64,000 nt of DNA from Aurantimonas coralicida DSM 14790 (GTDB lineage Bacteria; Pseudomonadota; Alphaproteobacteria; Rhizobiales; Rhizobiaceae). Below are positions 37,687 to 63,854 of the stretch, in pieces. The stretch spans positions 1-64,000 of the forward strand of contig NZ_ATXK01000006.1 of assembly GCF_000421645.1 (NCBI RefSeq), in the 5' to 3' direction. A program made the translations under genes and the position numbers. Within the stretch, counting starts at the first letter, position 1, and every line of letters starts with the position of its first letter. The notes under the pieces were generated by a model. The model had not been told where the DNA came from, searched no databases, and worked only from the letters and a program-made list of their open reading frames with translations.

Positions 37687-38339
37687 GCGGCTTTCCTCCG
37701 GATTCGGGGCGCGGAGGGGGCGCGCATCTTGGCTTCGAGAACCGCAGCCTTGTTCGCTTCGCGGGCGATCTGCCGGGCTTTGACGGCCTTCTGCTGCTTC
37801 CGCTTCTTCGTTTCCTTCTCATCGGCCCGGAGCGCATCGAACCCGTAGGCATGGGCATCCTTGGCGATGAGGTAGGCCTCGGCGGCATCGGCATCCGGAA
37901 CCGCAACGCCGTCGACGGCGCAGATCCGGCGAGCCTCGTCCTTCAGGAAATCCTTGTCGTTCAGATATCCGGCGCCATGAATGCGGCCGCGCCAGTCGCC
38001 CAGCCGAGAGATCACGGACGGAACGTGGGCGTCGTACGCGGCTTCGTGAGCCGCGGCCTGCAGGCGGGCGAGGAGGACGGCCGAGGCAAACCGCCCGGTG
38101 TCTTTCTCTATGACGACGAAATCGATCTCGAAGCGCTGGAGGATCTCTCCGATCCAGCGGCGGAGGCGCTTCGACTGGATGACGTGCTGGTCGTTGATCG
38201 GCACAGCCGCGATCGTCTTTGTCGCGGTCTTCCTGATGCCGTCGTCGAGACGCCACGACCCGACCGCCCGGACGCCGCTGTCATCGAGGACCGCGTAGCC
38301 GCTGTTGGTTGCGAGATCGAGGGCGAGGACGGTCGTCAT
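37683..38339 (-). CDS. RuvC-like Holliday junction resolvase
   Basis: Protein of 218 residues of the RNase H-like RuvC fold. The acidic catalytic residues are in LALDLATNSGYAV, FVVIEK and PDADAAEAY. A long basic C-terminal tail (TKKRKQQKAVKARQ) suits DNA binding. Phages use such enzymes to resolve replication intermediates before packaging. It is coupled to the HTH gene upstream (four-base overlap). Confidence 0.8.
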   Translation of the reverse strand: MTTVLALDLATNSGYAVLDDSGVRAVGSWRLDDGIRKTATKTIAAVPINDQHVIQSKRLRRWIGEILQRFEIDFVVIEKDTGRFASAVLLARLQAAAHEAAYDAHVPSVISRLGDWRGRIHGAGYLNDKDFLKDEARRICAVDGVAVPDADAAEAYLIAKDAHAYGFDALRADEKETKKRKQQKAVKARQIAREANKAAVLEAKMRAPSAPRIRRKAA

Positions 38340-38653
38340 GCCGCCAGCCTCGTCAGCGCGACGGACCCCGGCTTCGGAGCGACGATGTCGTAGCGCAGCT
38401 TAATGCCCAGCGCTTCCGCGAGCTTCAGAGCGGCTTCGTGACCCAGCGCCCGGGTGTCGCCACGTATATAAAGAGAGACCCTCTCGCGGTGAGAGTTCGA
38501 TTGCCAGCCGGCGATCAGGCAGGCCTCACGCATCGTGATGCTCCGCCGGGAGATCTCCCGCCGGATAGCGATAGCCAGACTCTCGTGCAGACCCTCAAGC
38601 AAGCGCGGTCGAATACGCAACTGGAACCCCTCGGTACAACTCATACGCAACAC
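38336..38653 (-). CDS. Small phage HTH protein
   Basis: Up to 105 residues from GTG (38653) or 102 from ATG (38644). The core has the layout of an HTH of the XRE kind: SITMREACLIAGWQSNSHRE, then RGDTRALGHEAALKLAEALG. It is the first gene of the leftward lysis operon and faces the primase-helicase gene, so it could regulate the shared intergenic region. Confidence 0.65.
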   Translation of the reverse strand: MLRMSCTEGFQLRIRPRLLEGLHESLAIAIRREISRRSITMREACLIAGWQSNSHRERVSLYIRGDTRALGHEAALKLAEALGIKLRYDIVAPKPGSVALTRLAA

Positions 38654-38986
38654 GACGCCGGACCCCCATCCGGCGAATACGAATCAAATTGTCGGCGAGG
38701 AGTTAGCAACGCGCAATGCAAGCGGCGCATGAAAAGTGGAAAATTTCAGGAACGTTCCGGAAACCGATGTGAACACCCGGAAAGTCCGACCACGATCCGC
38801 ACGGCTCCTGAAACATCGTCGGCACCAATAATGTGCAAAGTGCAAATTGTGACTTTCGCTGGTGAACGTCGAATCTGATTGCGGCTTACAAATCGTATGA
38901 TACGATGCAGGACTGAGACCGATCGACACTCCCCTCAACGATCGATCGGCTCAACCACTGATAGACGACATCGCAGGCAGGAACGC
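38654..38986. promoter_or_regulatory. Divergent control region of the phage replication and lysis operons
   Basis: AT-rich intergenic region between the HTH gene and the primase-helicase. Two palindromes stand out: GGAACGTTCC (38749-38758) and ATCGTATGATACGAT (38892-38906), the latter with seven-base arms around a G. Either could bind the HTH protein or another phage regulator. No clear -35/-10 pair with good spacing was found. Confidence 0.5.
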
Positions 38987-54946: not shown

Positions 54947-55306
54947 TTAGCGGATGAGGATGCCGACCGCGGCCATATCGGCGCGGAGCGAAACCTCGGC
55001 AGCGGCTGTCGCGGCGGCATCCACCGCGTCGGCCTCGTCGAGGACGTCCGGGAAGAAGATGCGGGCGGCCTTCACGATCGCTGGACCGCGAACCAGGGCG
55101 GCGACCTCGGTGGTCTCGCCGGCGTAGACGGTCTCGATGTTGATGCCGATGAAGTCGCCGGCTTCGTCCGCACAGACGGTGCCGGGAATGACGTCGCCGC
55201 CGGCCGGCGCGGTGATCTCCACGGCCTCACGGCAGTAGGAGACGTCGACCTCGTAGTGGAATGCCTCGGTCGGGCGGAACGGTTCGCGAAGGCGCTGGTA
55301 AGCCAT
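54947..55306 (-). CDS. Head decoration protein (lambda gpD type)
   Basis: One hundred and nineteen residues with FHYEVDVSYCREAVEITAPA and GPAIVKAARIFFPD. It is between protease/scaffold and capsid genes, as gpD in lambda, and the beta-rich sequence fits the family. It would stabilise the expanded capsid. Confidence 0.75.
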   Translation of the reverse strand: MAYQRLREPFRPTEAFHYEVDVSYCREAVEITAPAGGDVIPGTVCADEAGDFIGINIETVYAGETTEVAALVRGPAIVKAARIFFPDVLDEADAVDAAATAAAEVSLRADMAAVGILIR

Positions 55307-55318
55307 GTTCTTGGATCC

Positions 55319-55732
55319 TTACTTGGTGCCGCCGCCGAAGGCGGAGCGGAAGGCCGTGCCGAAGTCCGGCAGCTGCTCTGCGTGGCGAGAACCACCCATC
55401 GAGGAGCCGCCGTCGATGTCCGGCGTGTTGCTGTGCTTGCGAGCGCCCGACGCGACCATCGAACGCAACTCGGCGACCGTGGCGCCTGCCTTGTCCATGG
55501 CGTCGAAGCCGGCCTCGCAGCCATAGGAGACGGCGGCGGAGCGGAGACCGGCGATGGCCGCGGTGTCCTCGGCGGAACGTTCGCTGGTCGTCGGAGCGGT
55601 CGGGGTCGTGGTGACCTCGGTGCTTTCCTTGGAGCGCTTCTCGGCTTCGGCTGCCTCGCGGGCGGTCTTCTCAGCCTCCAGCGCGGTGCGAACGGCGTCG
55701 GTGACGAGCGAGCGGATCTGCTCTTCGGTCAT
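55319..55732 (-). CDS. Internal scaffold protein (Nu3-like) from an in-frame start
   Basis: An in-frame ATG at 55732 has GAGG eight bases before it and starts exactly at the coiled scaffold. Translation from it would give a 137-residue protein (MTEEQIRSLVTDAVRTALEA and on). Supported by the lambda C/Nu3 arrangement but not proven. Confidence 0.5.
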   Translation of the reverse strand: MTEEQIRSLVTDAVRTALEAEKTAREAAEAEKRSKESTEVTTTPTAPTTSERSAEDTAAIAGLRSAAVSYGCEAGFDAMDKAGATVAELRSMVASGARKHSNTPDIDGGSSMGGSRHAEQLPDFGTAFRSAFGGGTK

Positions 55733-56350
55733 GTCGGTTTCCTCGGTGTTGGTCTGGGAGCGCCGCCAATCGACGACGAGGTCCGTGGCGGACCGGATCT
55801 GGGCATTGGCGTCGGCCGGGACGGGGACGAGGCTGGCCTCAAGGATCAGCCACCGCTTCGCACGCATGGTGCGCTTGCCGGTGGCGGTATCGGTGACAAG
55901 CTCGGTCTCGAGAATGTCGTAGCCGACGGAGAAATTGCGCAGGACGCCCTCGCGGATGCCGTCGACGAGGTCCTTCACGGACTCGCGTCCGGAAAGCTGC
56001 GCCTCGCACATCACGACACCGGACTCGCGCCACATCTTGGTGACGACGCCGATGACGTGATCTGCGTCCCATGCGCGATGCGAATTCAGGAGCGGGATCG
56101 ACCGGCCGGACTCGTCCATGAGGATCGCGGTCTCTGTCGGCAGGACTTCCTCGGCCTGGAACCGCTCATAGGTGTCCAGGTCGCGATACCAGCGGATGAC
56201 GGGCTGGGGAGTGGCGAGAACGAACGTGATCTTGCCGTCTTCCGTCAGACTCGAAGGGGTCAGCTCGGCCGAACGCAGACCCCGGGCGGTCTCCGGCGCG
56301 AACTGCCCCTCGGCCTTCACATCTGCGATCTTCACGACCTTGTCCGACAA
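55319..56350 (-). CDS. Prohead protease with fused scaffold domain
   Basis: Protein of 343 residues. The N-terminal 200 residues look like an HK97-type prohead protease: His in LLNSHRAWDADHVIGVV, NFSVGYDI and the LEASLVPVPADANA block. The rest, from the internal ATG at 55732, is a coiled scaffold (MTEEQIRSLVTDAVRTALEA). The arrangement parallels lambda C/Nu3 in which the scaffold is translated from inside the protease gene. Confidence 0.82.
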   Translation of the reverse strand: MSDKVVKIADVKAEGQFAPETARGLRSAELTPSSLTEDGKITFVLATPQPVIRWYRDLDTYERFQAEEVLPTETAILMDESGRSIPLLNSHRAWDADHVIGVVTKMWRESGVVMCEAQLSGRESVKDLVDGIREGVLRNFSVGYDILETELVTDTATGKRTMRAKRWLILEASLVPVPADANAQIRSATDLVVDWRRSQTNTEETDMTEEQIRSLVTDAVRTALEAEKTAREAAEAEKRSKESTEVTTTPTAPTTSERSAEDTAAIAGLRSAAVSYGCEAGFDAMDKAGATVAELRSMVASGARKHSNTPDIDGGSSMGGSRHAEQLPDFGTAFRSAFGGGTK

Positions 56351-56400
56351 AAAACTTAAACCCCGGAACGCCTTAATTTCCGGGATTCTGACGCATCAGG

Positions 56401-56422
56401 TGGCCCCTTTTCACGGGGTGTC
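56401..56422. repeat. Copy 1 of a dispersed 22-bp hairpin repeat
   Basis: Core CCCCTTTTCACGGGG; the outer bases TGG and TGTC are also shared. It lies between the portal stop and the protease start. The same 22 bases recur at 58409 and 62382 in the same orientation. The CCCC/GGGG arms can pair. Confidence 0.8.
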
Positions 56423-56434
56423 CGCGAACTTTTT

Positions 56435-57979
56435 TCAGTCGAGGACGGATGCGTCTTTCGCGGCCTGGTCGACCGTCTTGCGCTCCGACGATTCTTCGGC
56501 CGCTGCCTCCGCGGCGATCGACGCCGTCGTGTCTGACGCTTCCGCATTCCAGAGCGGCTCCGTCCACTGGAGACCATTCTCGCGAGCCCTCGCCAGATCC
56601 TTCGCCTGCTGCCGGGCTACTTCCTCGGGACGCATGCCGAAATACGCCCTGGTGACGTAGCTGTGCGGGACGACACCACGATCGGCGGCGTTCAGCATCA
56701 CATTCAGTTCCTGCGTCAGCGCGGCGCTCTGGACGACCGGCCAGTTCCAGGTGACCTCATACGGTTCCCAAGGCTTCGTCCCGGCCGGCGGTGACCAGAG
56801 ACCGGTCGCCTGACAGGTATCGACGAATGCGCGCCAGGCCGGATTGATCGCCTGATGCTCCAAGCCATCTCTCTCGATCTCGGCCCGGCGCTTCACGGCG
56901 GCGCCGGCCAGACGCATGGCGCGTTCCGGGGCATCGTTGTAATCGCCGGTCACTTCCCAAACAGGCGCGCCGACGCCGGCGCAGATCGCCAGGATCTGGA
57001 AGCGAAGCGCCTTCTCGAACAGGGCGGGTTCGTCCTTCGGCTGCGTGGTCTCAACCTCGAATCCCGGCGGAAGTTCGAATGCCAGGCCGGAGCCCAGGGT
57101 GACCGACCGGATCATCTCGTCGACGCGGGCGGCATCCGGGAGGGCGTCGGCATTGTCGCCAGCGGCCGCATCCACGGTGCGCTTGAAGAACACGTTGAAG
57201 ATCGAGGCGATCTGCTTCCGTCGGCGCTCGGCGTCCTCCATCGTGGCGATCGCCAACGCTCTGAGGAGGGCGACAGCGAGGAGGACCTCGCCGCGGACGC
57301 CGCCGGTCATCGGATCGAAGACGTGGAAGACCTCGTCCGCAGGGATCTGCATCGGTCGCGTGTTGATGCCGATGCTGTCGGGGTCCAGGGGATTGGACGG
57401 CCACATCGCATATGCGACCGGGCGATCCAGCTGCGTCAGGACGCCGGCGCGGAACCGATAGTCCCCGAATCCCGCCGGGTCGTGGTCGACGGGGACGTAC
57501 TCCGACGTCAGGGCTTGGAACTGGAGCGGTACCGTCAGGCGGGATGCGGCCGGCCGACCGATCCGGAGACGCCGGCGGATGAATGCCTCGCCGTCGACGA
57601 TCCGGTTCCGATAGACGTCTTCGCGGAGCCAGGAGCCGAAACTCCGGACGCCACGGTTGTCGAAGTCTCGGGAAGCCTGCCGCCACAAGACCTCGAGATC
57701 CCGGAATTTCGAGACCGGCTCCGGCCCGACGCCGACATGGATATCGCAGAGAGTCCGGACCAAGCTTCGGACCCAAGCGTCGTTGCGATACAGGTGCCTG
57801 GCGAGCTTCTGCATGTCGCGCAGATAGCTTGCCGACTGGATCGGGCCGAGGGTCGGAGCCTTGGGAGCTGCCGGGTGGCCGACGACGTCATAGGGTCGGG
57901 GAACGGACATCGACCCACGGAATGCGGAACGGCCGGCCGGGATGCGGACACGGGGCTTCTCGGCAATGATTTCGGACAT
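56435..57979 (-). CDS. Portal protein (lambda gpB type)
   Basis: Protein of 514 residues. Motifs of the lambda-family portal are visible: RNDAWVRSLVRTLCDIHVG, WLREDVYRNRIVDGEAFIRR, HVFDPMTGGVRG and VWEVTGDYNDAPERAMRL. It forms the vertex through which DNA enters the prohead. The gene follows the small gpW-like gene by one base. Confidence 0.9.
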   Translation of the reverse strand: MSEIIAEKPRVRIPAGRSAFRGSMSVPRPYDVVGHPAAPKAPTLGPIQSASYLRDMQKLARHLYRNDAWVRSLVRTLCDIHVGVGPEPVSKFRDLEVLWRQASRDFDNRGVRSFGSWLREDVYRNRIVDGEAFIRRRLRIGRPAASRLTVPLQFQALTSEYVPVDHDPAGFGDYRFRAGVLTQLDRPVAYAMWPSNPLDPDSIGINTRPMQIPADEVFHVFDPMTGGVRGEVLLAVALLRALAIATMEDAERRRKQIASIFNVFFKRTVDAAAGDNADALPDAARVDEMIRSVTLGSGLAFELPPGFEVETTQPKDEPALFEKALRFQILAICAGVGAPVWEVTGDYNDAPERAMRLAGAAVKRRAEIERDGLEHQAINPAWRAFVDTCQATGLWSPPAGTKPWEPYEVTWNWPVVQSAALTQELNVMLNAADRGVVPHSYVTRAYFGMRPEEVARQQAKDLARARENGLQWTEPLWNAEASDTTASIAAEAAAEESSERKTVDQAAKDASVLD

Positions 57980-58233
57980 CAGTAGTGCCGATCCTTATCA
58001 ACCGTGATTTGGTAGACCTTCATGCCGGGCGACGGCCGGCGGACGATCTTCTCGCCGGTCTTGGCTTCGTAGGCCCAGAACAGGTCGTCGAGGGTTCTCA
58101 AGGCCTGATTCCGCGAGAGCAGCGTTGCGGAGCCTTCGGTCGGGGACGCGATCTGGCTGGCGCCAGTCGTCAGCTGCTCTTCCATGCGCATGATCGCCGT
58201 CTTCACCTGGTCGGCTGACCAAAAGTGGAACAT
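57979..58233 (-). CDS. gpW-like head-tail connector protein
   Basis: Eighty-four residues with MRMEEQLTTGASQIASPTEG and RTLDDLFWAYEAKTGEKIV. Lambda gpW is the protein between terminase and portal genes, and length and helical content fit. It starts just after the terminase stop. Confidence 0.75.
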   Translation of the reverse strand: MFHFWSADQVKTAIMRMEEQLTTGASQIASPTEGSATLLSRNQALRTLDDLFWAYEAKTGEKIVRRPSPGMKVYQITVDKDRHY

Positions 58234-60501
58234 TCACCAGATCCCTTCGGCGCGAGCGACGGGCCCTTGGGACCGCGGCTTCTCTTTCACGCCGGCCACG
58301 GCGGCACCTGCGTCCCTCGTCTTGCCCGGATCGAGGACTTTCAGACGGAAACGCGGGCGCTCGCCGATCGCCGGCGCAGTCGTATCCGTGGGAGTCTGCG
58401 GCGTCTCCTGGCCCCTTTTCACGGGGTGTCCTGAATTTTTTTCAGGGGCCGGCCGGATCTTCGGTTCTGCGGCCTCTGCCTGGGTTTCCGCCTGGCGCGA
58501 CATCGCCTCCTCGAGGGCGAGGGCATCTAGCCTGGCGATCGCCGCATCGACCTTGCGCGAGTTCTGCCGGGCATAGCATTCGGCGGCGTAGGCATAGACG
58601 AGGCAGTCCCAGACTTCGCCTGTCTCCTCTGCGGATATCCGCCGCCACATCGTGGAGCCGTTGTCGAGCTTGACCTGATGCTCGGCGAGCAGGGATTCGT
58701 AGAAGTCCCGGTCGAACTTCGCCGAGAAGCCCCATGATTCCGGTGCCGGCGTCGGGATCTTCATCGTCCGAGACAGGGTGTCCTTCGCCGACTGCGTCCC
58801 GAGAAACAGGTACGGGCGCTTCAGGCGCTGCGAGAACGACTCCTTGTTCGGGATCACCGGGCGCCTTCCGGAGAACTCCCTGGCGCCCCGGATCGCCTTC
58901 ACGCCCCGGCGGCGGTTCTTCGGAAGGTTGCAGAAGTCCAGGACCTCGGAATTTCGCCAGCCGGAATCGACGAACATCGAGTGGATCTTGTGGATCTGGC
59001 CGTCGGCTCCGACCCAGTCGCGATCGAGATATTCCTCGATGAGCTGACAGGACATCGGCGACATGGGCTCGCAAGGCATGCGGACCGTCTCGCCTGAGAT
59101 GGGGTCGTACATGTCGTAGTGGGAAATCACCGTGCGATCGATGACGAAGCGCCGCCGGTTGCGACCGGCCGCATAGGTGACGATCTCGACCCGGGGCGGC
59201 TTGTCCGGACGATGCAGATTGCCTTCCTGGAGATCGACACCGGTGAACAGGTATTCGGTCCACTCCGGGCAATCGATGCCCTCGGGGAACGCCTCAGCCC
59301 GGTTCTCGAGTTCGCTCGGGTCGGCGTCCCGCTGGATTGGCTCCTCCCAGGGCTTGGCGAGCCAGACGTTCGTGAAGGTCTGCTGGAGCGACAGGTCCTT
59401 CTCCGACCGGGCATGGGCGTCGGCGATATCGATCCAGCGCGACTTCGGGTCGGTCGAGTGGGCTGCCCAGACGAAGACGCCGACATGGCCGCGGTCACCG
59501 ATCGTCGTCGGCTCGAAGACCCCGGTCTCCATCATCGGGACCTTCTCGGTCTCCGGGATATGGTGGCCGCAACTCGCGCATTCGTACCAGACCTTCCCGG
59601 GGATCGGGACACCACGGTCGTCGGTGAGATAGCGCATGCCCGGCCCGTAGGGCGTCGTCTCGTCCTTGGCGCGCCGGACGTCGGGAAGGAACGCCTGGCG
59701 ATGGCCGCAGCATGTCGCCGTCATGACGAAATCCCGCTTGTCCGACTTCTCGAATTCCTCGGATACGGTGCACTCGCCGGCGCGGGTCGGTGTGCCGCCC
59801 AGGTAGAGGGTGAAGTCGGCGAACTCTTGTCCACGGCGCTTGATGAGGTCGACCTTCGACCCCTCCGAATTCTTTCCCGATGCCCGGTATGCCTTGTCGC
59901 CGGCCTCGTCGGCGATGATGAACCTGCCCCGGATGGCGCGGAACGAACCATTGTTCTCGGCGGAACGGTGCTTCATGCCGGCGCCGTTCATCAGCATCTT
60001 GTCGGTCCAGCGATCCTGGATGCCGGACTTCGTCGCCTTCCGGATCAGGTGGGCGATCGAGATGGAGTTCTCGAACACCGGCATCAGGCGGTCGTTGTGG
60101 AAATCCTGCGCCGCTCCCTCGGAACGTTCGTAGAAGATCGTGTCGGAGCTTTCGTGGCAGCCGTAATACAGCATACCGGCCGCGTTCAGGAACGACGAGC
60201 CGATCCGGGGTGGCTTCAGGAAGGTCACCTGCGAGACGAACGGATCCTGCCAGAACCTCGAGATTGCCGCCTGGATCGGCGTCAGGACCATCGGCCCGCC
60301 ACGGGTGGACTTCTCGGCCGGGACGAAGAGGTTCTTCGCGCACCAGGCCGGGATGTCCTCGGGCTCGTTCGCGATCAACGCCTCGGAGAGTTCTGCGAGG
60401 GACCGGAAGAACGCCACCTCGCCGAGACGCGCCAGGCGGCGAGCCTCGCGGATCAGCGCCGGATCCTTGGCGGCATCCTCGATCTCGATCATGTCAGGCA
60501 T
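58234..60501 (-). CDS. Terminase large subunit (lambda gpA type)
   Basis: Protein of 755 residues. The ATPase has a lambda-like Walker A region (FLKPPRIGSSFL), a Walker B-like RFIIADEAGD, and the nuclease domain contains FTGVDLQEGN and FVDSGWRNSE. It powers DNA translocation and cuts cos sites. Near the C-terminus (after PAPEKN) lies the second copy of the 22-bp hairpin repeat, read in frame as SGHPVKRG. The start overlaps the end of the small subunit gene by eight bases. Confidence 0.93.
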   Translation of the reverse strand: MPDMIEIEDAAKDPALIREARRLARLGEVAFFRSLAELSEALIANEPEDIPAWCAKNLFVPAEKSTRGGPMVLTPIQAAISRFWQDPFVSQVTFLKPPRIGSSFLNAAGMLYYGCHESSDTIFYERSEGAAQDFHNDRLMPVFENSISIAHLIRKATKSGIQDRWTDKMLMNGAGMKHRSAENNGSFRAIRGRFIIADEAGDKAYRASGKNSEGSKVDLIKRRGQEFADFTLYLGGTPTRAGECTVSEEFEKSDKRDFVMTATCCGHRQAFLPDVRRAKDETTPYGPGMRYLTDDRGVPIPGKVWYECASCGHHIPETEKVPMMETGVFEPTTIGDRGHVGVFVWAAHSTDPKSRWIDIADAHARSEKDLSLQQTFTNVWLAKPWEEPIQRDADPSELENRAEAFPEGIDCPEWTEYLFTGVDLQEGNLHRPDKPPRVEIVTYAAGRNRRRFVIDRTVISHYDMYDPISGETVRMPCEPMSPMSCQLIEEYLDRDWVGADGQIHKIHSMFVDSGWRNSEVLDFCNLPKNRRRGVKAIRGAREFSGRRPVIPNKESFSQRLKRPYLFLGTQSAKDTLSRTMKIPTPAPESWGFSAKFDRDFYESLLAEHQVKLDNGSTMWRRISAEETGEVWDCLVYAYAAECYARQNSRKVDAAIARLDALALEEAMSRQAETQAEAAEPKIRPAPEKNSGHPVKRGQETPQTPTDTTAPAIGERPRFRLKVLDPGKTRDAGAAVAGVKEKPRSQGPVARAEGIW
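58409..58430. repeat. Copy 2 of the 22-bp hairpin repeat, inside the terminase gene
   Basis: Identical over all 22 bases to the copies at 56401 and 62382. It lies within the coding sequence of the terminase and is followed on the plus strand by CTGAATTTTTTTCAG, which resembles the flank of copy 1. Confidence 0.8.
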
Positions 60502-61150
60502 CGGGATCCGCCTCGATGACGGCCGGACCGACGTCGTCGGCCAGCGCCGAGAACATGTCGTTCATGGATTTCGCGCATTCGACGAGACCGGCCCGACACG
60601 TCTTCAAGGCGTCGAGGCGCCACTGCTGGCAGCGGTCGTCGTCGAACCCGGCCATGTCGCGGAATATCCTGTCGGGAATCGACATGATGGACTGCCGGAT
60701 CTTGGACAGGCCCTCGACGTAGGCGAACTCCAGTGGCTCGCGATGGATCAGGATCTTCGCGGTCTGGGCCAGCTTCATCTCGGCCGTCCGTGCCGCTGCG
60801 AGATCCTTGCGGTCCTTGATGTCGAGCTTGCCCATGGCGCCGTCCGCCGGATGTTCGCCGTCGGGCATCTCGAACTTCCGGCGCTCGTCCCGGGCGACCT
60901 GTTCCTCCCTCCATTTCCAGACCGCCCGGACATCGACGAGGATGGCCTCGCCCCTGGCGGTCGCAGCGGACTCCGTCGGGCAGCCCTTGTCGATCCACCC
61001 CCGAAGCGTTCCCCGATCGAAACCCGTGATCCTGGAGAACTCGGCGATGGAGACCACCCGGGCAGATTTCTCCGATCGCTCGGCAGCCGCCTCGACGGCA
61101 TCGGCGGTCGATCGCTTCGACGACCCGACTGGGCGAAACTTCCGGGTCAT
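60494..61150 (-). CDS. Terminase small subunit (Nu1 type)
   Basis: Protein of 218 residues. A helix-turn-helix near 32-55 (VSIAEFSRITGFDRGTLRGW) recognises DNA at the cos site, followed by a basic-acidic linker and the large-subunit binding end. Lambda Nu1 and its relatives have this layout. Together with the gpA-type partner it implies a cos-packaging phage. Confidence 0.85.
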   Translation of the reverse strand: MTRKFRPVGSSKRSTADAVEAAAERSEKSARVVSIAEFSRITGFDRGTLRGWIDKGCPTESAATARGEAILVDVRAVWKWREEQVARDERRKFEMPDGEHPADGAMGKLDIKDRKDLAAARTAEMKLAQTAKILIHREPLEFAYVEGLSKIRQSIMSIPDRIFRDMAGFDDDRCQQWRLDALKTCRAGLVECAKSMNDMFSALADDVGPAVIEADPDA

Positions 61151-61387
61151 GACTGGGCTCCATGGGGTGTCGATCCCGCAGGTCGGCGATCGCGAATCCG
61201 GGACAGCCCTCTCCTACGGAGAGGGGAGGTCGCCAAATGCCGGTCGAAACCTGTGGGTGCTGCGGGGTGAAAAATTTTTGTTCTATAAGTAGCGACAGGA
61301 AATAGGCGCGAACTTCCCCGCATGGTTGTATAGGTCGTGGGGTCCCCCGGCCTCTCGACGCCCCTCCAGCCCCTCGTTTGTGGGCGT
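61151..61387. other. Intergenic region upstream of the terminase; possible cos region
   Basis: No gene is apparent. A tight hairpin (CCCTCTCC at 61208-61215 and GGAGAGGG at 61219-61226, loop TAC) and an A/T-rich patch (about 61269-61289) are the only structures. In lambda the cos site is just upstream of Nu1, so this is the natural place to look for it, but no cos sequence can be recognised. Confidence 0.35.
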
Positions 61388-62341
61388 TCATGGCGTCACC
61401 TTGGGTTTGTTCTTCGATCCCTTCTTCCGTCCCTTCTTGGACGGTTGCAACCTGCCGGCGGCTATTTCCTGAGCCTTCCACTCCTGCAGTCTCTTGCGTT
61501 CGCCACGGGCATTGGCGTTCTTCCTCGCAGCCCGTGCCGTCCTCTCCAGCCTCATGTCGGCCAGGATCTCTTCGAGACGTTCTCTCAGCCTGTCCTGCAG
61601 TCCATCGGTGGCGAGGGAGACCGACTTGTTCCAGGAGGGGACGAGATAATCCTTCCTGCCGTAATCGCTCTCCTCGACAGCGAATGCGAGGGGCAGGGGC
61701 CTGTGCCCCCGGTCCTTGCCGCGCCGCCAAAAGGCGAGGGGGCCGAGCGATCCGTCCTTACGACGAGGACGACCGAAGAAGGGAGCGCCGGCCGTCCGAT
61801 CGCCTGTCTCTGTCGCCAGGAGCTTTCCGTCCGGCCCACGCTCTCTCTCAACATCGCCGACCTGGCCTTGCTTGGCCTTCGCCACAAGCTTGGAGAGAGC
61901 ATTGCGGGGCAGGCCGCCGGCCTTCGTCTTCCTGATGCCAAAGGCCTTCAGGTGCTCGAAGACCGGAATGAAATTGTAGGAGTCAGCCACACCAGCGATG
62001 CCGGGCTCTCTCTCGTCGCGCTCGCCGAGCATGAACTGCAGATATTTCGCCTGGAGGGGGCGGACACTGACGCTGGCCTCGGCAACGCCTTTGGTCGCGC
62101 CCTTCCTTGTGTTCGCCACAACGGACGACGACTTCTTGCCCGGACGGATTTTCGTGAATCTGGAAGGGCCGCCCTCGATATTCCGCTCGAAGCGCCCTTC
62201 CATCTGGCGGACGGACGCCGTTGCGACATCGTTGACGGCGGTCTGCAAGGCGTCCGCAAAAGCATATTTCCCGAGCGCCTGGAACCGAAGTTCCAGCTCG
62301 TCCAGCCCAGAAATGTCGATTAAGGTGTCGTCCCGGATCAT
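61388..62341 (-). CDS. Phage protein upstream of the terminase, possible tail-completion type
   Basis: Protein of 317 residues beginning MIRDDTLIDISGLDELELRF. The opening (LGKYAFADALQTAVNDVATA, SVRQMEGRF) resembles minor tail/tail-completion (gpZ-like) proteins, and the last 60 residues are very basic (KKGRKKGSKNKPKVTP). The position before the terminase genes is unusual for a tail gene. Function uncertain. Confidence 0.55.
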   Translation of the reverse strand: MIRDDTLIDISGLDELELRFQALGKYAFADALQTAVNDVATASVRQMEGRFERNIEGGPSRFTKIRPGKKSSSVVANTRKGATKGVAEASVSVRPLQAKYLQFMLGERDEREPGIAGVADSYNFIPVFEHLKAFGIRKTKAGGLPRNALSKLVAKAKQGQVGDVERERGPDGKLLATETGDRTAGAPFFGRPRRKDGSLGPLAFWRRGKDRGHRPLPLAFAVEESDYGRKDYLVPSWNKSVSLATDGLQDRLRERLEEILADMRLERTARAARKNANARGERKRLQEWKAQEIAAGRLQPSKKGRKKGSKNKPKVTP

Positions 62342-62381
62342 GCCGTCCCCGCCTGTGTAGCGGGGATCCGATCATGTGCAG

Positions 62382-62403
62382 TGGCCCCTTTTCACGGGGT
62401 GTC
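62382..62403. repeat. Copy 3 of the 22-bp hairpin repeat
   Basis: Identical to the other two copies. It lies between two genes, starting 40 bases upstream of the 61388-62341 gene start and ending six bases after the stop of the 62410-62820 gene. Confidence 0.8.
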
Positions 62404-62409
62404 GTGAGA

Positions 62410-62820
62410 TTATTTGTAGAGGTAGGCGACGGCATCCTCGCGGAAGACTGCGTACTCGGCCCATGCGGCTTGGCTAGCCGCCTGACGCTTGGCCTCTGCT
62501 TCGCCGGCAATGCGGTCTGCCTCGGCCCGGGCGGCGGCCTTTTCGGCCTTCTGGGCTTCGTATGCTTCCGCTGCTCGCTGCTCCTCCACCAGCTCCTCCC
62601 ACAGTCCCTCGGTCTCCCCGAACTGGGCATGGAAGCGATAGAGCGACTGGTAATAAGGGGACAACGCAAAAAGATCGCCGGCGCGAGGGGTGTCCTCGGC
62701 CGGCGCAGTCAGGTTCTGATAGACGCCGCATGCGGCGCGTGTGCCAGATATAGCACGGCCGCACGCGTGAGGCGAGGGCTGTTCCGTAGGGAAAAGCGGC
62801 AGCTGTCGATCGTCAGTCAT
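62410..62820 (-). CDS. Phage protein, function unknown
   Basis: One hundred and thirty-six residues beginning MTDDRQLPLFPTEQPSPHAC with a coiled, Ala/Glu-rich second half (EEQRAAEAYEAQKAEKAAAR). Starts four bases inside the stop of the gene upstream. No family recognised. Confidence 0.55.
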   Translation of the reverse strand: MTDDRQLPLFPTEQPSPHACGRAISGTRAACGVYQNLTAPAEDTPRAGDLFALSPYYQSLYRFHAQFGETEGLWEELVEEQRAAEAYEAQKAEKAAARAEADRIAGEAEAKRQAASQAAWAEYAVFREDAVAYLYK

Positions 62821-63854
62821 GCCGCTTTCTCCATATCGTCGTCGCTGTCCTCGCTGTCATCCTCATCGGGGTTGACCGGGTACTCGTCAGGAAGGGAGAC
62901 AGTCGCCGGAATGCCGAATTCATCGCCCTCCGGCGGTGCCTGGATATCGTCGTCCCGAAGGGGATCCTGCACGTCCTCGTCGATCGCCGGGGCATCCTCG
63001 ACATCCGCGACTGGGGCGGGATGGGCTTCCACCACCGGCTCCTGAGGCGTCTCGACCTTGGCCGCTGGCGGAACCTCGGTCGGGGTCGCATCGACGGCAG
63101 CAGCCAGACCGGCGGGGAGATCGCCATCGTCGTGCTTCTCACGCTGCTTGATCAGGACGTTCATCGCCCAGGCCGGTGGTTCGACAGACCCGTCAAGCCA
63201 GGCCTCGATGTCGGTCATGGTGACCACCGTGCGCTTGTCTTCGTCGATGTACGGATTGCCAGAGAGGACGATCGCCGAAGTCGGGACCGTCTCCCAGAGA
63301 TTCGCGAACATGCCAGCCCTAGCCAGCCGGCTGTGGGTCTCTGCGTCGATCTCTGCCCGCTCCTCTCTCGTCGGACCGGATCCGCGCAGCCGGCGGACCT
63401 CCAACTGCCGCTTGCCGATCGGTTTGGCATTCCCCTCGATAACGGTCTTCTGTGCGAACCCGTTCGAGACCCTCGACAGCTTGTCGTGATCGCAGTCCCA
63501 GACCAAGCCGTACTGCACCATCAAGACCGTCTTGCCAGGCGTCCTGGTCGCTTTCCTGTAGACCCTCTGGACCTCTCCGACCGCCAGATACTCGCGCCGG
63601 ACCTTCACCTGCCTATGGTTGTAGCCGGCCGTCTTCTCGAAGACGGGCTGCCCGTGCGACCCCCGTCCGGCGACGACGGGCAGGCACTGGCGGACGCGGA
63701 TGACGTCGCCGACGCGCAGGTCATCGGTGCCGGCTTCCAGCCACTCGACGCCGTTCTCGGTGAGTCCTTCGAGGACGTCCTGGGGAATCGTCGCCGCGTC
63801 GTTCTCATCGACGAGAACGTGGTTGGGCGTAGGGTCGTATCGCTTCGGTCGCAT
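62817..63854 (-). CDS. Phage protein with acidic C-terminal tail, function unknown
   Basis: Protein of 345 residues beginning MRPKRYDPTPNHVLVDENDA. The first 200 residues look beta-rich (VRVRQCLPVVAG, QVKVRREYLAVGEVQRV) and the last 70 are very acidic (PDEDDSEDSDDDMEKAA). I do not recognise the family. The upstream region continues past 63854 to the right edge without a further gene visible. Confidence 0.5.
   Translation of the reverse strand: MRPKRYDPTPNHVLVDENDAATIPQDVLEGLTENGVEWLEAGTDDLRVGDVIRVRQCLPVVAGRGSHGQPVFEKTAGYNHRQVKVRREYLAVGEVQRVYRKATRTPGKTVLMVQYGLVWDCDHDKLSRVSNGFAQKTVIEGNAKPIGKRQLEVRRLRGSGPTREERAEIDAETHSRLARAGMFANLWETVPTSAIVLSGNPYIDEDKRTVVTMTDIEAWLDGSVEPPAWAMNVLIKQREKHDDGDLPAGLAAAVDATPTEVPPAAKVETPQEPVVEAHPAPVADVEDAPAIDEDVQDPLRDDDIQAPPEGDEFGIPATVSLPDEYPVNPDEDDSEDSDDDMEKAA

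Follow-up and report, generated by a model that had tools for sequence, protein, structure and literature searches.

Repeats along the head genes of an Aurantimonas coralicida phage region and its relatives are candidate late promoters with hairpin-gated translation

In phage T4, the ribosome binding sites of genes e, soc, 49 and I-TevI are hidden by a hairpin in long transcripts, while transcripts started at local late promoters lack the 5' strand of this hairpin (available excerpts of PMC3014915 and PMC2988022). The middle promoters of the same phage, as described in the available part of PMC2988021, carry in place of the -35 element a MotA box at -30, 12 +/- 1 bp from a sigma-70 -10, and a good -10 is needed. 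Repeated sequences beside gene starts, known as SAS/ESAS, are present in cluster K mycobacteriophages; they lie mostly in one orientation, are partly inverted repeats and have a consensus which varies between phages, and the excerpted text of PMC3203893 leaves their function open. Here a 22-bp repeat is described which occurs three times among the late genes of a phage region in Aurantimonas coralicida DSM 14790 (contig NZ_ATXK01000006.1, positions 1 to 64,000; this whole stretch of 64,000 nucleotides is called the window). Based on sequence comparisons and predicted folding, we consider it probable that this repeat and its counterparts in related phages are phage-specific late promoters with hairpin-gated translation, as in T4 gene e.

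The three copies of the 22-mer (sense form GACACCCCGTGAAAAGGGGCCA) match exactly and share a single orientation, which is that of the minus-strand late genes. Copy 1 (56401..56422, minus strand) begins 12 nt past the portal stop codon, copy 2 (58409..58430, minus strand) lies within the reading frame of terL, about 175 nt ahead of its stop, and copy 3 (62382..62403, minus strand) is found upstream of the terminase genes, between open reading frames (ORFs) of 136 and 317 amino acids. The original prediction had described three identical copies in the same orientation, one in the terminase coding sequence and two between genes, with further bases shared by copies 1 and 2, and was correct on all these points. 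The 15-bp core occurs exactly three times within the 64 kb; at up to two mismatches 0.16 occurrences were expected and none of 100 shuffles reached three. No fourth copy of the 22-mer was present at up to two mismatches in the whole genome (4,615,647 bases), and the sole further site at up to three was a single 3-mismatch site on a different contig. A scan of 397 genomes of the order returned the genome itself and, among the 396 others, one 2-mismatch site, which by estimate is about the chance level.

Two virus contigs carry the window motif. One of them, identical to the window over 15,764 bases, is not an independent case. The DNA of the other (L011) is 81-83% identical to that of the window and retains all three copies; copies 1 and 3 are unchanged (0/22 each) and copy 2 differs at one position (1/22), so that 1/66 motif positions changed as against 177/869 flank positions (binomial 5e-6).

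A prophage of Fulvimarina manganoxydans (L013), with a terL product 38-40% identical, lacks the window motif and has its own 16-bp repeat, TTTTCCGGCGAAACCC, present in four exact copies in the late direction: ahead of the ORF that takes the place of terS, in the tail of terL, past the stop codon of the portal gene and ahead of a further ORF. Since a different repeat occupies equivalent places, attention shifts from one particular sequence to position. The relatives may have a rhizobial affinity, to judge from Fulvimarina, which belongs to the family group of the window. Of 394 genomes in the host family, 34 gave matches to a portal profile, and regions were fetched for 20 of the 39 matches. 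Five of these 20 regions (L128, L129, L132, L136 and L138) have four copies each of GAATCTTGCA, while three have other repeats (L126, with the Fulvimarina repeat, L127 and L131). A repeat at the portal end was clear in 6 of 22 phages (L132, L136, L138, the window, L011 and L013) and borderline in L134 and L135, by a test which is insensitive, missing the element carriers L128 and L129; none was seen at the portal end in the controls phiAP1, N15 and two Azospirillum prophages. The search for the motif in related phages that had been proposed earlier had a mixed outcome: L011, the one related phage with diverged DNA, has it, whereas in more remote phages different motifs stand at these positions. 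It seems that distant relatives retain signals of this kind at comparable positions while the letters change. Beyond these groups, a 39-nt query against named phages gave nothing convincing (best E 0.6), and for the string GAATCTTGCA no phage paper by title was found among the literature matches listed.

Several further repeats were observed along the way. In the metagenomic phage L032 (2890, 5134 and 8892) the near-perfect palindrome GTGCAGACATCTGCACC lies in the tails of two late genes including terL, with a degenerate copy directly after a stop codon; this is possibly another version of the same arrangement. L058 (11993, 13744 and 15835) has a 30-nt repeat ending in TTTGCCTTAACCGTTTC, about 40-60 nt upstream of late-region start codons, and metagenomic phage L021 (851, 914, 1598 and 1681) has clusters of GGCAAGG-type repeats directly after stop codons. 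Directly behind an element copy at 14015 in L131 comes a strong hairpin which, with its T run, is terminator-like. A single pair of 15-bp direct repeats in phage N15 (L222 2372 and 8326), one copy of which is in the terL tail, may be due to chance.

A larger group of relatives carries the element T[T/C/A]GAATCTTGCA at five places: upstream of terS (site 1), in terL (site 2), after the portal gene (site 3), in a small gene between the capsid and tail genes (site 4) and, where the records are longer, ahead of a small gene weakly similar to holins (site 5; E 0.02). A terL profile search identified 71 virus loci, 25 of which were examined for structure and the remaining 46 for the motif only. In the 25 closest loci (L149-L173), 23 have GAATCTTGCA, all 82 copies being on the terL strand; it was present in 1/46 and 1/75 of the remoter (outgroup) loci. 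Fourteen phage regions (639,792 bases) contain 71 copies in the late direction and 0 in the opposite one, with about 0.6 expected per strand. The phages within a set are related, so these counts are not independent, and all E-values and z-scores given here are computational. L149 and L173 are the same sequences as L132 and L128; they were included in the positional-equivalence and strand counts and left out of the hairpin-fold, Shine-Dalgarno accessibility, control and base-conservation counts below.

Translation uses these bases in two different frames, as TTG AAT CTT GCA in terL (site 2) and as xTC GAA TCT TGC A at site 4, and there are intergenic copies as well. In an alignment of 29 terL sequences that were not selected by motif, all four codons are exact in 25, and their entropy is 0-0.22 bit, compared with 0.80-2.10 bit at 19 other conserved leucine, asparagine and alanine columns. 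The terL codons of the relatives are therefore constrained at the nucleotide level.

Conservation extends beyond the element itself. With the first base of TNGAAT numbered 1, the 54 non-coding copies favor G12 (70%), A27 (59%), T28 (49/54), C34 (36), A35 (39) and a purine at position 36 (50), and T28 is kept in 98 of 104 copies over sites 1-5. These positions suggest a register for the larger family in which TNGAAT would be the -35 element, followed by a 17-nt spacer, with T28 as the last base of the -10 element (-7) and A35 as +1. In the window, L011 and the Fulvimarina phage, a T is present at the equivalent position in 10 of 10 copies, one base further, giving an 18-nt spacer after GTGAAA or GCGAAA. 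By this register with the relatives, the proposed -35-like hexamer of copy 1 is GTGAAA (56409..56414) and its -10-like hexamer CAGAAT (56385..56390), with a predicted +1 near 56378. The corresponding putative hexamers are GTGAAA (58417..58422) and CAGACT (58393..58398) for copy 2, which is inside terL and where a start-codon hairpin is not expected, and GTGAAA (62390..62395) and TCGGAT (62366..62371), a weak match to TATAAT, for copy 3, with a predicted +1 near 62359; all are on the minus strand. The geometry at the elements is thus sigma-70-like, with a sequence unlike the consensus. Two other ideas were tried and rejected. A sigma-54 promoter, defined by GG at -24 and, at a distance of 10 nt, GC at -12, does not fit, since among the 54 non-coding copies there is no conserved GG upstream of TTGC and positions -3 to -1 are unconserved. 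The GAATC in the element of the larger family is a GANTC site, which would suggest CcrM-GcrA control, but the block of the window copies has no GANTC.

The second recurrent feature is a hairpin downstream of the intergenic copies. In the window, CCCGGAA-ATTAAGGCG-TTCCGGG (56362..56384, minus strand) precedes the protease start, and TCCCCGC-TACACAG-GCGGGGA (62346..62366, minus strand) contains in its 3' arm the Shine-Dalgarno sequence GGGA of the 317-amino-acid ORF (start 62341); both were checked by folding and in the sequence. The computed probability that the Shine-Dalgarno sequence is unpaired rises from 0.02 in the longer RNA to 0.96 in RNA beginning at the predicted +1 at copy 3, and from 0.00 to 0.42 at copy 1. 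In the larger family, folding against shuffles gave mean z values of -1.65 for site 1 and -2.21 for site 3 (n=22 each; in this count only, one site-4 row of L138 was placed under site 3). At these two sites the median end of the 5' arm lies 36-37 nt from where the element begins, and the start codon is 59.3 +/- 2.9 nt from that point (43 site-1/site-3 copies). Over the same 43 copies the unpaired probability rises from 0.15 in the longer RNA to 0.54 when the RNA begins at the predicted +1, with a gain above 0.3 at 29 starts and a loss above 0.3 at none. Such gains were found at 12 of 26 element-linked starts (46%) and at 14 of 176 control starts without an element (8%). In silico, the Shine-Dalgarno sequence is hidden in the long RNA only, as in the T4 type.

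This structure is distinct from the hairpin within the repeat. The original prediction that the core can fold as a short hairpin stands insofar as a CCCC/GGGG stem exists; it is a weak stem of 4 bp (-7.3 kcal/mol and z -1.2 over the 22-mer) and in a 51-nt context is the minimum-energy fold of copies 2 and 3, not of copy 1. The 4-bp stem, the z range of -0.3 to -1.3 and the absence of a dyad from the GAATCTTGCA element of the larger family speak against the motif hairpin as a functional RNA, and it is probably not the point of the repeat. The RNA-processing role also suggested earlier is unsupported, as the recurrent RNA structure sits 30-50 nt downstream, over the Shine-Dalgarno sequence of the next gene. 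No intrinsic terminator (GC stem and T run) was present on the minus strand at the repeat copies; the scan found 5 sites against 5.3 expected, one of which (62390-62409, plus strand) overlaps copy 3 and faces the other way.

Taken as a mechanism, each repeat would form the -35 region, the upstream portion, of a late promoter specific to the phage, several copies of which are spread along the head-gene operon. Each copy would supply a GTGAAA -35-like hexamer within a longer phage-specific block, followed 18 nt on by a -10-like hexamer, weak and with a final T, and 7 nt beyond that by +1. Because the -10 is weak and the block varies with lineage, the block is probably recognised by a cognate factor, either phage-encoded or a host factor redirected by a phage protein. 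At the copies which precede genes, the DNA from -10 to +1 would also encode the 5' arm of the hairpin, whose 3' arm contains the Shine-Dalgarno sequence. Read-through RNA includes the 5' arm, so transcripts started upstream would leave the head gene untranslated, while those from the local promoter would lack the arm and be translatable. Copies within coding sequence, as in terL, would act as plain internal promoters. Support for the earlier proposal, a function in DNA or RNA such as that of a phage promoter, comes from conservation against mutated flanks, from the one orientation, from equivalent positions in distant phages, from the fixed codons of relatives and from the promoter-like spacing. 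The data directly show repetition, orientation, conservation, constraint on the nucleotides of the relatives' codons, bases specific to position and predicted folding, from which promoter identity, start points, gating and the factor are inferred.

A number of observations weigh against this interpretation. The window register (GTGAAA with an 18-nt spacer) was picked post hoc, after the relatives had been seen, and the bases predicted as +1 are A, G and T at the three window copies. The -10 hexamers are poor, and a search for the sigma-70 consensus (TTGACA, 16-18 nt, TATAAT; at least 9/12 matches) gave no site in window 55000-63500. Most phages from the family-wide portal search have none of these elements, given the 5/20 regions with GAATCTTGCA and the 3/20 with other repeats. 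There is little hairpin at coding sites 2 and 4 (mean z -0.11, n=25, and -0.41, n=24). Gating is weak at copy 1 of L011 (unpaired probability 0.00 to 0.18) and at the three Fulvimarina starts (0.16 to 0.25, 0.00 to 0.29 and 0.25 to 0.36), and the 8% of control starts matters because removal of upstream RNA tends to free bases anyway. The rows of one motif alignment were chosen by exact GAATCTTGC[AG], so that its ten-base constancy exists by construction, and the alignment of 29 terL sequences is the unbiased test. Finally, ORF clustering and protein comparisons of the larger-family phages and the window gave no convincing factor. One small helix-turn-helix (HTH)-like protein of about 85 amino acids is common to 13 of 14 larger-family phages, and its gene lies in the lysis region, an odd location for a late activator. 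The distal late region of the window also encodes a small HTH-like protein (38336-38683, minus strand; sub-threshold HTH_3). The match between the two is weak (E 0.007, hhalign probability 15.7%), and the small HTH-like protein as the factor is an unproven lead.

The late genes of the window are on the minus strand in the order 136-amino-acid ORF, copy 3, 317-amino-acid ORF (61388..62341; without a PHROG or Pfam match), terS (60494..61150; PHROG match 1.3e-19), terL (58234..60501; PHROG match 3.4e-90) with copy 2 in its tail, 84-amino-acid ORF, portal gene (56435..57979; PHROG match 2.5e-41), copy 1 and head maturation protease gene (55319..56350; PHROG match 1.2e-39).

Other explanations were weighed against the same data. 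An element which is phage-specific and strand-specific, occurs in coding and non-coding sequence and is repeated along one operon could also be an RNA-level antitermination or loading site, where an N-, put- or NusG/RfaH-like phage protein would bind the nascent transcript or elongation complex and sustain RNA polymerase and ribosomes through the late operon. The window core bears a likeness, by eye, to lambda boxB, the partner of boxA in a nut site, and an Azospirillum prophage has an annotated NusG-family protein just upstream of terS (L221 10344-10913). That prophage, however, shows no such repeat by the scan used. PF02357 (NusG) had no match in 17 viral records, possibly fragments, that carry the element or are close to it; its matches were confined to the 7 host genomes, and the window genome has a single one, on a different contig. 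No Rfam covariance model matched up to E 1 in window 55000-63500, which also counts against an RNA site, and such a site does not predict T28 and a +1-like purine at fixed spacing in every class. We consider antitermination unlikely. It is very unlikely that the element and the hairpin downstream act in the mRNA as a single unit to which a protein or small RNA binds, controlling translation or decay of the head-gene message; the hairpins over the Shine-Dalgarno sequence at sites 1 and 3 would agree with this, but the copies in terL and the second coding gene have no hairpin and are still held fixed.

Binding of a prophage repressor to oriented, asymmetric sites, silencing the late operon in the lysogen, has a precedent in the stoperators of cluster A mycobacteriophages, which are likewise asymmetric, dispersed and lineage-specific (PMC9283540, available part), and the element could overlap a promoter and double as an operator. 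A repressor should hit early promoters too, yet the copies face the late direction only (71 versus 0 in the 14 regions), the whole window genome has just three at up to two mismatches, and neither the fixed start-codon distance nor the hairpin register is predicted; we judge this decidedly improbable. Short repeats at gene ends might instead serve as linkers for recombination, or be a small repeat, mobile or related to packaging, that is homogenised by gene conversion. Relative to L011, the terS/terL stretch of the window (58896-60888) is swapped or strongly diverged (64% identical or unalignable inside), in surroundings that are 81-83% identical. The borders of this mosaic junction do not coincide with repeat copies, and strand bias, codon fixation in 29 diverged terL sequences and fixed -10/+1-like positions are not predicted, which leaves this explanation hardly credible.

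If the repeats are indeed late promoters, a wider proposal can be put forward tentatively, and we would not bet on it: that there is a lineage-specific late-promoter code, by which prophages with lambda-like heads keep promoters at the same gene positions, even in terL codons, while at several unlinked sites the block (GTGAAAAGGGG, GCGAAACCC or GAATCTTGCA) has been replaced in concert, following a putative, rapidly changing phage factor that is sigma-like or appropriates sigma. How the specificity of several dispersed sites changes jointly would then be an evolutionary question. Should the promoter interpretation hold, the head genes of a widespread, unstudied prophage group would not be one simple late operon and would form a set of promoters, each with an RNA switch barring read-through translation. 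This would keep capsid genes tightly silent in prophages and would account for the fixed codons in terminase genes, and the short motifs could serve for mapping late regulons and finding activators in metagenomic phages.

Among the described systems, the stoperators, as presented in the available part of PMC9283540, resemble the elements in being oriented, asymmetric, dispersed and lineage-specific; unlike them, the elements are restricted to the late-gene direction and have a fixed start-codon distance and a hairpin. The SAS/ESAS repeats, in the excerpted description, share a mostly single orientation beside gene starts; SAS lie directly upstream of starts, whereas the element is about 59 nt upstream, with intragenic copies and -10/+1-like positions. 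To judge from the available text on T4 middle promoters, the spacing is similar, the conserved block here ending about 11-13 nt before the -10-like hexamer, but the sequence is different and the -10 poor. The T4 genes e, soc, 49 and I-TevI share a hairpin hiding the Shine-Dalgarno sequence together with a local late promoter, both of which are predicted here. In T4 this arrangement uses the late promoter TATAAATA at a few genes; here it would use a -35-type phage-specific block, both where head genes start and within coding regions, and the head modules are lambda-like.

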